64,000 bases of DNA from Bacteroidia bacterium (GTDB lineage Bacteria; Bacteroidota; Bacteroidia; Cytophagales; Flammeovirgaceae). The translations under genes were made by a program, and so were the position numbers. Numbering within the stretch: position 1 is the stretch's first letter; the number at the start of each line of letters is the position of its first letter. Below the pieces are notes generated by a model that saw only the letters and a program-made list of their open reading frames with translations, was not told the origin of the DNA and made no database searches. The stretch is from the NCBI GenBank assembly GCA_030425505.1, contig JAUIAB010000010.1:1-64000 (forward strand). Direction: 5' to 3'. This document shows, one piece after another, positions 2,245 through 60,368 of the stretch.

Positions 2245-2341
2245 ATGAAACAGACCATGTCTGATTTAAAATTGAGGCACACAGGAAGTAATGATTAAGA
2301 TGTGTGCCAAACAAATTGGGCAGAGCACAAATTTTAAACTA
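2245..2341 (+). repeat. Leader element copy A, upstream of the DUF423 gene
   Basis: This is one of three near-identical elements of about 95 bases in the window (others at 21231-21327 and 27484-27576, minus strand). It ends at the base before the DUF423 start codon at 2342 and has the same orientation as that gene. Visible structure: a hairpin CAGAC/GTCTG (2251-2263), then an AT-rich pair TTTAAAATT (2265-2273) with AATTTTAAA (2330-2338) that encloses an 8-bp stem GGCACACA (2276-2283) with TGTGTGCC (2301-2308). An ORF of 17 codons, MKQTMSDLKLRHTGSND, starts at its first base. The repeat is seen directly; a role as a 5' leader RNA is inference. Confidence 0.75.
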
Positions 2342-2725
2342 ATGAAAGCGTATAAAGTATTAATTATTCTTGGAGTATTATGTTCTCTTTTTGGAGTGGT
2401 TATAGGAGCTTTTGGTGCACATGGACTAGAGAATATATTAGCTAAAAATGGATATACAAGTACTTTTGAGACAGGAGTGAAGTATCAGTTTTATCACTCT
2501 TTTGGTTTAATACTTATCGGTTTTTTATTGCAAAAAAACGAAAATAAGCTTCTTTTAACTTCCGGGATGCTTATGTTTTTAGGCATTCTATTATTCTCTT
2601 TTAGTTTGTATGTATTAGCAATAACAGGTATTAAATATCTGGGCATAATAACCCCTTTTGGAGGAGTGCTATTTGTTGTCAGTTGGATATTATTACTAAT
2701 TTACCTGGTTAAATATTTGAAATAA
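2342..2725 (+). CDS. DUF423 family small membrane protein
   Basis: The 127-residue protein is almost entirely four hydrophobic helices and carries the family signature GAFGAHGLE near residues 22-30, followed by a second conserved stretch TGVKYQFYHSFGL. This matches DUF423 (YgdD-like) inner-membrane proteins, which have no established function. I chose ATG 2342. An upstream in-frame ATG at 2291 would add 17 residues, but those codons lie wholly inside leader element A, which also occurs before two unrelated genes, so the longer start is not credible. The gene converges on the GyrI-like gene with a 26-base gap. The leader element directly upstream suggests control at the RNA or promoter level. 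Confidence 0.85.
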   Translation: MKAYKVLIILGVLCSLFGVVIGAFGAHGLENILAKNGYTSTFETGVKYQFYHSFGLILIGFLLQKNENKLLLTSGMLMFLGILLFSFSLYVLAITGIKYLGIITPFGGVLFVVSWILLLIYLVKYLK

Positions 2726-20182: not shown

Positions 20183-21169
20183 TTATGAATTTATTTTAAT
20201 CACTACCTTGCCAGTAAACTCATTTCGATCCATTTTTTGATGTGCGATTACCATATCTTCAAAATCAAAAACAGCATCTATGTATGGTTTATAAAAACCT
20301 TTTTCAACTCTATCAATAATTGTCTGAAGGTTCTGGGTATCCTTAGAAGAATGTAAACCTTCACTTGAAAAAAAAGAGGTATTAGGTAAAGACAACACAT
20401 CTTTAAAATCAGCTGATTTGCTTGTCCCATAGCTGTCTGCAAGAGAACCCGCCAGACAGATTCTACCACCCTTTGCTAGCATACTTAGGTCATCTTTCAC
20501 AGATTCTTCACTAACAATAGTATCTACAACACCCGTAGCTCCATTTGACCATGTTTCTAAAACTTCATCACCAACCTTACTGGAAGAAGTTATCACCTTA
20601 TACATCCCTGTTTTCATCATTTTTTCTACTTTATGTGAGCTCCTAGTAACTCCAATTACTTGACCTCCCAGATGATTAACTATCTGTGTAATTGCTATTC
20701 CTAAAGCAGATGCTCCTGGTCGTATAACTATTTTTGGATGTTTTTCTAAGCATAAAGACTCAAAACAACAACCCCAGGCAGTAAAATAAGTTTCTGGTAT
20801 AGATGCAAGTGTAATCCAGTCTAAGTCAGTTTCTATAGGAAAAACATTTGCCAAAGGAACAACAATCATTTCAGCATAAGATCCATTATACTTTCTTCCC
20901 ATTCCTCCCATAGCTGCTGCTACTTTTTGTCCTGGATTTAGCTCACCTCCAGGGCATTCCATAACTTCCCCAACACATTCAATACCAATTACTTTTGGGA
21001 ATTTCACTGCGTCGAAAGAACCTCCCATTCGCGTCACAGCCTCTGCTCTATTTAACCCAAAGGCTTTAATCTTAATTAAGGCTTTTCCTTTTTCAGGGAT
21101 AGGGTCTGGAAGGTTTTGTGGTTCTAGTACATTGGGGCTTCCAGGTTGGGATACTAGATATGCTTTCAT
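20183..21169 (-). CDS. Zinc-type medium-chain dehydrogenase/quinone oxidoreductase-like protein
   Basis: The 328-residue protein is an MDR-superfamily NADPH oxidoreductase. Supporting features are the N-terminal GroES-like domain (LIKIKAFGLNRAEAVTRMG and GIECVGEV), a Rossmann region IRPGASALGIAITQIVNHLGG with QVIGVTRSSHK, and a C-terminal HQKMDRNEFTGKVVIKI. NRAE at the catalytic position is typical of the quinone-oxidoreductase type without the catalytic zinc Cys. The substrate is unknown. Leader element copy B lies about 60 bases upstream of its ATG in the sense orientation. The flavodoxin-like gene follows at 34 bases. Confidence 0.85.
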   Translation of the reverse strand: MKAYLVSQPGSPNVLEPQNLPDPIPEKGKALIKIKAFGLNRAEAVTRMGGSFDAVKFPKVIGIECVGEVMECPGGELNPGQKVAAAMGGMGRKYNGSYAEMIVVPLANVFPIETDLDWITLASIPETYFTAWGCCFESLCLEKHPKIVIRPGASALGIAITQIVNHLGGQVIGVTRSSHKVEKMMKTGMYKVITSSSKVGDEVLETWSNGATGVVDTIVSEESVKDDLSMLAKGGRICLAGSLADSYGTSKSADFKDVLSLPNTSFFSSEGLHSSKDTQNLQTIIDRVEKGFYKPYIDAVFDFEDMVIAHQKMDRNEFTGKVVIKINS

Positions 21170-21230
21170 GTTTACTTACCAGTTAGGTTTCAATGCCTCG
21201 AAGCTTGCTTCAATTATAAAAAGTTTTTCA

Positions 21231-21327
21231 TCTGTTTAAAATTTATGACCTGCCTTTTTGTTTGGCACACATCTTAATCATTGCTTCATGTGTGCTTCAA
21301 TTTTAAATCAGACATGGTCTGTTTCAT
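21231..21327 (-). repeat. Leader element copy B, upstream of the medium-chain dehydrogenase gene
   Basis: This copy differs from copy A at only a few positions in its first 70 bases. It is oriented with the dehydrogenase gene and ends about 60 bases before its ATG at 21169. It keeps the CAGAC/GTCTG hairpin, an 8-bp stem GCACACAT/ATGTGTGC and the enclosing TTTAAAATT/AATTTTAAA pair. Its ORF reads MKQTMSDLKLKHT and stops with TGA at 21286-21288. The extra 60 bases before the start codon are unique to this copy. Confidence 0.75.
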
Positions 21328-26511: not shown

Positions 26512-27483
26512 CTAGATACTTAGAATGTTTACCATTTTTATTAGGTCTGTGTTTAATGGTTTTTTGTTGTTTATTGCTTCTTTGAAGGAAGTATGAATTA
26601 TTTTATCGTTTACGACTCCCACCATTTCGTTTTTTCTACCATTGATTAGTGCTTCAACTGCTGCCAAGCCTAACCTGCTTGATAGTATTCGATCAATAGC
26701 TGTAGGAGCTCCTCCTCTCTGTATGTGACCCAGTGTTGTAACTCTTATGTCAAATTGCGGAAGCTTTTCTTTTGCTTTTACAGATACGTAGTGAGCATCT
26801 CCTACTTCTTCTCCTTCTGCTACTATTACTATTGAAGACGATTTTGATTTTTTTTTATTTTTTTGAAGGATATCTATTACTCCTTCTATGCTATCTGGGT
26901 TTTCCGGAATCATTACCAGTTCTGCTCCACAACCTATTCCTGTTTGGATTGCTATATAACCAGAGTCTCTTCCCATTACTTCTATAAAAAATACCCGGTC
27001 GTGTGAATCTGCCGTATCTCTGATTTTGTCTGCTGCGTCTAATGCAGTATTCACCGCTGTATCAAACCCTATGGTGTAGTCTGTTCCGTATAGGTCGTTG
27101 TCTATGGTTCCTGGCGCTCCTATGGTAGGAATTCCATATTCCTGATAAAAGATTTCTGCACCAGTGAATGTCCCATTTCCTCCTATTGCTACTATTCCTT
27201 CTATTCCATGCTTTTGGAGGTTTTCAAATGCTTTTTTTCTGCCTGTTCTGGTTCTAAATTCATCTGATCTTGCAGATTTTAAGATGGTACCACCTCTTTG
27301 AATGATGTTACTTACCGACTGTGAGTTTAACTCTACAAAGTCACCATTTATCATTCCTTTGTACCCTCTTTTTATCCCCATTATTTCCAAGCCATTGTAT
27401 ATGGCTCCTCTTACCACAGAACGGATACATGCGTTCATGCCAGGTGCATCTCCTCCGGATGTGAATACTGCTATTTTTTTCAT
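26512..27483 (-). CDS. pfkA: 6-phosphofructokinase
   Basis: This enzyme phosphorylates fructose 6-phosphate in glycolysis. The 323-residue protein has GGDAPGMNACIRSVV, the Arg72 region ILKSARSDEF, the catalytic PGTIDND and MGRDSGYIA, so group A bacterial PFK is certain. The nucleotide motif that normally reads GGDGS or GGDGT is GGNGT here (AAT codon), replacing the Asp near position 103 that helps bind magnesium. Activity may be altered, or this may be usual in its lineage. Leader element C lies directly before the ATG, so expression is a candidate for the same control as the DUF423 and dehydrogenase genes. Confidence 0.93.
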   Translation of the reverse strand: MKKIAVFTSGGDAPGMNACIRSVVRGAIYNGLEIMGIKRGYKGMINGDFVELNSQSVSNIIQRGGTILKSARSDEFRTRTGRKKAFENLQKHGIEGIVAIGGNGTFTGAEIFYQEYGIPTIGAPGTIDNDLYGTDYTIGFDTAVNTALDAADKIRDTADSHDRVFFIEVMGRDSGYIAIQTGIGCGAELVMIPENPDSIEGVIDILQKNKKKSKSSSIVIVAEGEEVGDAHYVSVKAKEKLPQFDIRVTTLGHIQRGGAPTAIDRILSSRLGLAAVEALINGRKNEMVGVVNDKIIHTSFKEAINNKKPLNTDLIKMVNILSI

Positions 27484-27576
27484 CTTAAAATTTGTGACCA
27501 GCCTAGTTTATTTGACACACATCTTAAGTATTGCTTATGTGTACCTCCATTTTAAATCAGACAAGGTCTGTTTCAT
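27484..27576 (-). repeat. Leader element copy C, upstream of pfkA
   Basis: This is the most diverged of the three copies. It abuts the pfkA ATG (27481-27483) in the sense orientation. The CAGAC/GTCTG stem is intact, with the only change in the loop (CAT to CTT). The second stem reads GGTACACAT/ATGTGTGTC: the two changes relative to copy A give G-U and U-G pairs in the sense RNA. The ORF is MKQTLSDLKWRYT with stop TAA at 27535-27537. The enclosing pair is TTTAAAAT/ATTTTAA. Confidence 0.75.
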
Positions 27577-60258: not shown

Positions 60259-60368
60259 ATTAGGTAAATATTTATTTCAACTAACAAAAACTCCTTTCAG
60301 GTATTAACTAAAAAGGCGAAAACCGAAAAGCCTTAATAGAGTAGGTGTTCAATAAAATTTTTTTGAAA

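Follow-up and report, generated by a model that had tools for sequence, protein, structure and literature searches.

A short and evidently mobile repeat family at start codons in Bacteroidota

The element in the window and in its genome

The window (the whole 64-kb stretch of DNA that was analysed) contains three near-identical elements, all of which lie on the strands given by a sequence-only reading. Copy 1 (2245..2341, +) extends from its left ATGA right up to the start codon of a DUF423-type gene (MKAYKV...), and the ATG of its right-hand ATGA (2342..2345, +) is this start codon. The longest open reading frame of the DUF423 gene (2291-2725, +) starts at an ATG inside copy 1 (MIKMCAKQ...), and automatic annotation of this gene may gain a false N-terminal stretch; more generally, gene finders can place the starts of host genes inside the element. 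Copy 2 (21232..21327, -) is 91% identical to copy 1 and lies 62 bases before the start of a medium-chain dehydrogenase gene (ATG at 21169, -), while its own right-hand ATGA (21228..21231, -) opens merely a short frame. It is nested in a second dispersed repeat (CTCGAGG ... GCAAGCTTCGAGG; window 21187-21211, -, and locus L076), which accounts for its distance from the dehydrogenase start; this outer repeat also surrounds an element copy at C19:104029. Copy 3 (27484..27576, -) abuts the start codon of pfkA (26512-27483, -) with a shortened right end (TTTTAAG-ATG), and the ATG of its right-hand ATGA (27480..27483, -) is the pfkA start codon, at 27483.

Analysis of the window's own genome (G000, 2.95 Mb in 41 contigs, 95.7% complete) revealed that the element is widely dispersed. 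A DNA search matched at least 43 places (40 of the 118 candidates were scored, copy 3 not being among them), and a 21-base left-end pattern, allowing up to three mismatches, was found at 95 places against none for the reversed control, so the repeat is beyond chance. A profile search of the stretches fetched around the left-end matches obtained 99 element copies, the weakest being a 24-base piece (E 0.022); copy 3 has one mismatch to the left-end pattern and scores 82 bits by profile. The expectation of the sequence-only reading that three copies in 64 kb imply many is thus borne out. As the copies were gathered by the left-end pattern, positions 7-27 seem more conserved than they really are, and copies without the left end escape the collection.

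A typical copy of about 95 bp reads ATGAAACAG...TTTTAAACAG and is followed by ATGA. Divergence from the consensus ranges from 4 to 22%, mostly by G>A and C>T (93 copies alignable over most of their length), which indicates copies of many ages. As C, G and T also occur directly behind the right ATGA, it is ATGA, not ATGAAA, that the sites share. The most variable base of the element is the one before the right ATG (G 37, C 19, A 13 and T 4 in 73 copies), for which no partner was found in the same 73 copies. Elements also occur as tandem arrays joined via ATGA. Altogether, about 100 genes of one bacterium, pfkA among them, bear the same foreign leader at the start codon.

No Rfam 15 family was found on the elements, in the window at the gathering score and in nine element loci up to E 5, in agreement with the earlier statement that no riboswitch or known family is recognisable. 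The matches of the Rfam scan were tRNA, a DUF805b RNA elsewhere and sub-threshold matches off the elements. The DUF805b RNA (49 bits, 60313-60347, +) lies before a gene of 1206 residues, away from all three copies.

Distribution, position and occupied sites

Among 58 genomes searched as relatives, two of the same family (G004 and G009) carry diverged versions of the element, one of which precedes a TrkA-like gene in both. A right-end pattern matched 16 of 291 genomes of the order, G000 included. When named genomes were scanned with it, at least 116 stretches were obtained, and 80 of these loci were read; many contain the element and some are probably chance matches. Among the matches listed, the element is present in Algoriphagus, Lunatimonas, Cyclobacterium, Labilibacter, Natronoflexus, Flavobacterium and others, and versions were also found in Labilibaculum. 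Several Bacteroidota families share one layout despite differing sequence: a left ATGAAA, a stem and hairpin, CACACA-GGG-ATGATTAT, TTCCATCTGACC and a right ACAAATTATAAACAG-ATGA, the remainder being variable. One stretch in viral contigs matches the right-end pattern, and no match to one Algoriphagus-type query was found in plasmids and phages. An upstream reading frame encoding a leader peptide was considered and rejected: MKQTMSDLKLRHTRSND has look-alikes in G004 and G009, but other lineages have unrelated frames or frames of four residues.

The sequence-only reading had proposed a search of relatives with a covariance model of the element. Our model (R2) was built from 29 of the named loci; it matched 104 places in the 80 named loci (E <=0.1, among the matches listed) and 13 of 247 genomes of the phylum (E 0.001, strict filters), but at this threshold and under these filters it gave no match in G000. 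R2 has little power for the G000, G004 and G009 versions. Its two best matches in the window are copy 2 (E 0.09) and copy 1 (E 0.25), and it misses copy 3. It is likely, though not proven, that the G000 version and the R2 version descend from one ancestor.

The position of the copies relative to genes is strongly biased. In G000, the right-hand ATG opens an open reading frame in 77 of the 99 copies (frames of >=60 codons, ATG at -8 to +12 bases of the element end). Fifteen of the other 22 are in sense: they lie shortly before a gene, stand at a start that is GTG or TTG, are truncated or fused at a start, or precede a tandem copy. On reading of the ORF maps, 92 of 99 copies therefore stand in sense before a gene or a tandem copy, as the sequence-only reading had described for the three in the window. 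The remaining copies are four antisense to both neighbours (C19:104029, C23:65871, C27:41999 and C33:119774), one at the 3' end of a gene, one lying 231 bases upstream of a gene and one unplaced. Thus, the tabulated positions follow the proposed pattern of sense orientation at starts for most copies but depart from it in the four antisense copies and the 3' copy. In the window, 22 gene starts carry ATGA, compared with 41 further intergenic occurrences (both strands, frames of >=80 codons), so starts are used beyond their supply and a bare ATGA target does not account for the excess. The excess could stem from the elimination of insertions that do harm, from DNA being open near promoters or from some benefit to the gene. 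A left TGA is present in 73 copies and closes a frame of >=60 codons in 5 of them (control 3 of 89), and in three of the five the next gene begins at the right ATG; in these the element splits a stop-start junction and leaves both genes intact.

A similar position was observed in the relatives. Among 77 R2 matches in the named loci (27 of the 104, all shorter than 80 bases, were left out of the count), 53 stand exactly at the start of a frame and 3 at a short one; 7 precede a tandem copy by rule, and of the 14 found elsewhere some are tandem by reading. Counts at a start, before a tandem copy and elsewhere are 22, 1 and 2 in G440, 13, 2 and 0 in G529, and 13, 0 and 12 in G476 (65 of 66 matches, one partner of a tandem pair being left out). 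With 12 of 25 copies away from starts in G476, the start preference is not absolute.

One explanation of this bias is that the element is a regulatory leader RNA, which spreads by unrelated means and is kept for translation control. The sense position at start codons is what such a leader would show, whereas the antisense and 3' copies, the 12 displaced copies of G476, the 67-base forms of the same genome, in which a hairpin takes the place of the conserved core, and host genes with no evident common theme all argue against it.

Direct evidence for movement came from the comparison of filled and empty sites. The pfkA gene was compared across 30 loci of the genus Algoriphagus, including those of two close relatives with 96% identical pfkA: locus L264 is empty (...cctagagat-ATGAAAAAAATT), whereas in L263 two tandem elements, beginning ATGAAATCG, lie between ...cctatagat and ATGAAAAAAATT. 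By R2, the element stands at the pfkA start in 5 of the 30 loci (L263, L279, L282, L290 and L292), and L278 and L287 carry older-looking elements by eye. Similarly, L345 (G288) carries an element at the start of an M24 peptidase gene, where L346 (G317) has none, and at E <=1 R2 detected an element there in L345 alone of 30 loci. In both Algoriphagus genes, ATGA stands at both ends after insertion and the site is exactly the start codon. Since close species have filled and empty versions of the same site, the element moves and lands exactly on the start codon, and we regard mobility with insertion at start codons as almost certain for the family. The pfkA sequences of L263 and L264 also contradict the idea that the variable base before the right ATG is taken from the target.

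The ATGA at both ends may be either a target duplication or the element's own right end. The sequence-only reading had taken target-site duplications as the mark of a plain transposable repeat, and this mark is seen in part. These flanks, and the many short copies without genes, would also fit a conventional miniature element that a DDE-type transposase moves, ATGA being its 4-base target duplication. The likeness to MITEs lies in a short, gene-free, repeated sequence with what may be a short target duplication; however, terminal inverted repeats are absent on inspection of the ends by eye, the element has a single fixed orientation to its site, and the guide described below is complementary to one end only, which makes a DDE-type element quite improbable.

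Stem and guide

In the relatives, the left end contains a stem in which ATGAAATC-GA-GC pairs with GC-GA-GATTCCAT, tandem G.A included. It changes on both sides between types (TGCCCA/TGGGCA and CGAGCCA/TGGCGAG). In alignment A3, 86.5% of stem cells are paired, compared with 14-41% when the partner is slid. Covariation scores 0.163, and 0.064 after shuffling; stem pairs with a change on both sides number 5, no more than column shuffles give. The pairing of the left ATG with CAT is nearly invariant in A3.

The stem is followed by a guide, CATNTG, whose N matches the base before ATG in the right end CANATG. The two bases are complementary in 69 of 82 relatives' copies (C-G 53, G-C 15 and T-A 1), a count in which the CAG type is favoured because the named loci were gathered via a right end with CAG. 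The other combinations are A-G 6, G-G 3, T-G 2, C-C 1 and T-C 1. The association is significant on the C and G part (Fisher 1e-11, related copies not being independent). In three genomes of other families, guide and right end are complementary in 49 of 60 copies (5 of 65 were left out), with C-G, G-C and A-T pairs, while the largest value of 20,000 shuffles was 35; shuffles within each genome gave P-values of 0.010, 0.010 and 0.0004. The guide can pair with the left ATG or with the right end, and a single molecule can accommodate both. For locus L142, the DNA fold of minimum energy holds both helices, and 17 of the 200 shuffles reach an equal or better fold.

The window version presents a different picture. 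By inspection, copy 1 has a possible guide region (2256..2273, +; CAT-gt-CTG-a-TTTAAAATT) that mostly complements the right end of the consensus, AATTTTAAA-CAG-ATG, although copy 1 itself has CTA instead of CAG before its right ATG. The stem TTTAAAAT/ATTTTAAA of copy 1 is present in the predicted DNA fold, which is better than all 200 shuffles. No guide covariation was found in G000 (73 of the 99 copies used), and this counts against carrying the guide over to the window. Likewise, five candidate stems showed no covariation in 93 of the 99 copies: paired counts and those expected from independent columns are 603/598.7, 442/441.2, 756/755.2, 324/325.9 and 436/434.1. The first of these belongs to a strong hairpin in the window version, GGCACACA/TGTGTGCC, which was rejected as unsupported. 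An RNA consensus fold of 35 G000 copies was also discarded, having 6 pairs and none with changes on both sides.

These observations bear on the leader RNA, which can also be formulated as a switch: the guide CATCTG would pair either with the host's CAG-AUG, shutting the start, or with the left AUG, freeing it. The complementarity of the relatives' guide to the start codon region and the two pairings open to one molecule are in line with a switch. On the other hand, the resident copies of G000 lack covariation in both stem (93 copies) and guide (73 copies), so a maintained leader RNA is disfavoured. Structure maintained as RNA is expected to favour G.U, and the covarying stem of the relatives has no excess of G.T (10, against 19 A.C mismatches). 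We therefore consider the leader RNA, in either form, unlikely. The sequence-only reading had left a choice between a leader RNA and a mobile leader that reprogrammes expression; the filled and empty sites uphold the mobility, whereas the leader RNA receives no backing from stems that pair just as independent columns predict, from the mismatch counts or from the four antisense copies and the one at a 3' end. A regulatory effect of the element on host genes is possible. The structure changes in step between mobile lineages and is not seen to be kept in residents, as expected if it serves movement, which is an argument and not a proof.

A route through RNA was also considered, in which the element would insert like an intron into mRNA at AUGA by means of an internal guide and be copied back into DNA. 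Group I introns have an internal guide, and one guide facing both flanks recalls it; such a route would also explain the in-sense excess at start codons. The antisense copies and the lack of a G.T excess speak against it, and RVT_1 had no match in G000 (95.7% complete; a source outside the genome is possible). We judge it highly improbable.

Mechanism, enzyme and known systems

On balance, we lean towards the reading that the element belongs to a non-autonomous family of mobile DNA in Bacteroidota, moved in trans as a single strand and directed by its guide; for the single-strand, guide-directed mechanism in trans taken by itself, we put the chances as even. In the relatives, the element inserts at ATGA, the site setting its orientation, and at a start codon the right-hand ATGA becomes the gene's start while the left-hand ATGA remains with the old 5' flank. 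Their left end can fold into the covarying stem, which takes in the left ATG. The top strand may then be handled as single-stranded DNA. As in IS200/IS605, an HUH (Y1-type) enzyme acting in trans may cleave it behind the ATGA at each end, at sites picked by the guide, and join it behind a new ATGA. Insertion or excision would keep ATGA intact. For the window copies we infer the same process, as their ends and layout match. Their place as leaders would then follow from the target and from tolerance, an intact start codon meaning little harm, and not from a regulatory role. Such an element would be one whose insertions are nearly harmless, as a start codon is left behind, and whose guide is readable from sequence. 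A more specific version, that the element is guide-programmed for start codons, with CATNTG reading CAN-ATG and rebuilding starts and the resident guide able to repress host translation, is put forward tentatively and is more doubtful than the general reading; if it is true, one change of a guide base would alter the accepted right end.

No enzyme was found for the element: none of 32 Y1 genes (2 in G000 and 30 loci of 12 relatives) has an adjoining element by R2, which is weak on the G000 version. End look-alikes beside the Y1 genes of L299, L303, L306 and L310 were rejected as elements by R2. Y1 genes are also present in G162, G064 and G246, where the right-end pattern found no copy, so the presence of a Y1 gene is uninformative. 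In L262, a Y1-like gene lies directly before a gene that we take for a CRISPR cas1. No autonomous copy with an internal transposase appeared in the end maps of the 80 named loci (two left-end types, among the matches listed). The RRXRR domain of IscB was not found above the cut-off in any of 13 genomes; G000 had no match and G004 one weak match below the cut-off.

Among known systems, HEARO elements are described as integrating at ATGA or GTGA; no HEARO match was obtained in the window (gathering score) or in nine element loci (E up to 5). IS608 of the IS200/IS605 family goes in on the 3' side of TTAC, with guides that base-pair to its cleavage sites (PMC5934647). The present element resembles it in inserting directly 3' of a fixed short sequence that remains in the left flank (ATGA in the relatives), in a hairpin near an end, and in guide bases that pair with cleavage sites, here the right end and the left ATG in the relatives, a pairing not seen in G000 (PMC5934647). 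In contrast to the present element, which has ATGA at the right end too, IS608 does not repeat its target there. Furthermore, the present guide lies behind the stem and not 5' of it, no Y1 gene stands alongside in the 32 cases examined, and start codons are preferred, so membership in IS200/IS605 is not established. The family was not recognised in the open-access literature within the terms searched.

REP sequences with TnpAREP (PMC8266576) are similar in being short, chromosomal and present in many copies, in having hairpins and in possibly being moved in trans by a Y1 enzyme. REPs are palindromes of 20-50 bases with a GTAG-type tetranucleotide, whereas the consensus of the present element is about 95 bases long, starts with ATGA and stands at start codons. 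Hairpins resembling REPs (CCCGAT..ATCGGG and CCTGCCTG..CAGACAGG) are themselves nested at a few fixed places in many Algoriphagus-type copies (L120, L136, L141, L173, L178 and others). In addition, a short form of 66-67 bases occurs in G476 (L402, L406, L413, L419, L423, L424, L428 and L432); a hairpin of the CCCGAT..ATCGGG type takes the place of its hairpin and conserved core, and the left end, guide and right end are retained.
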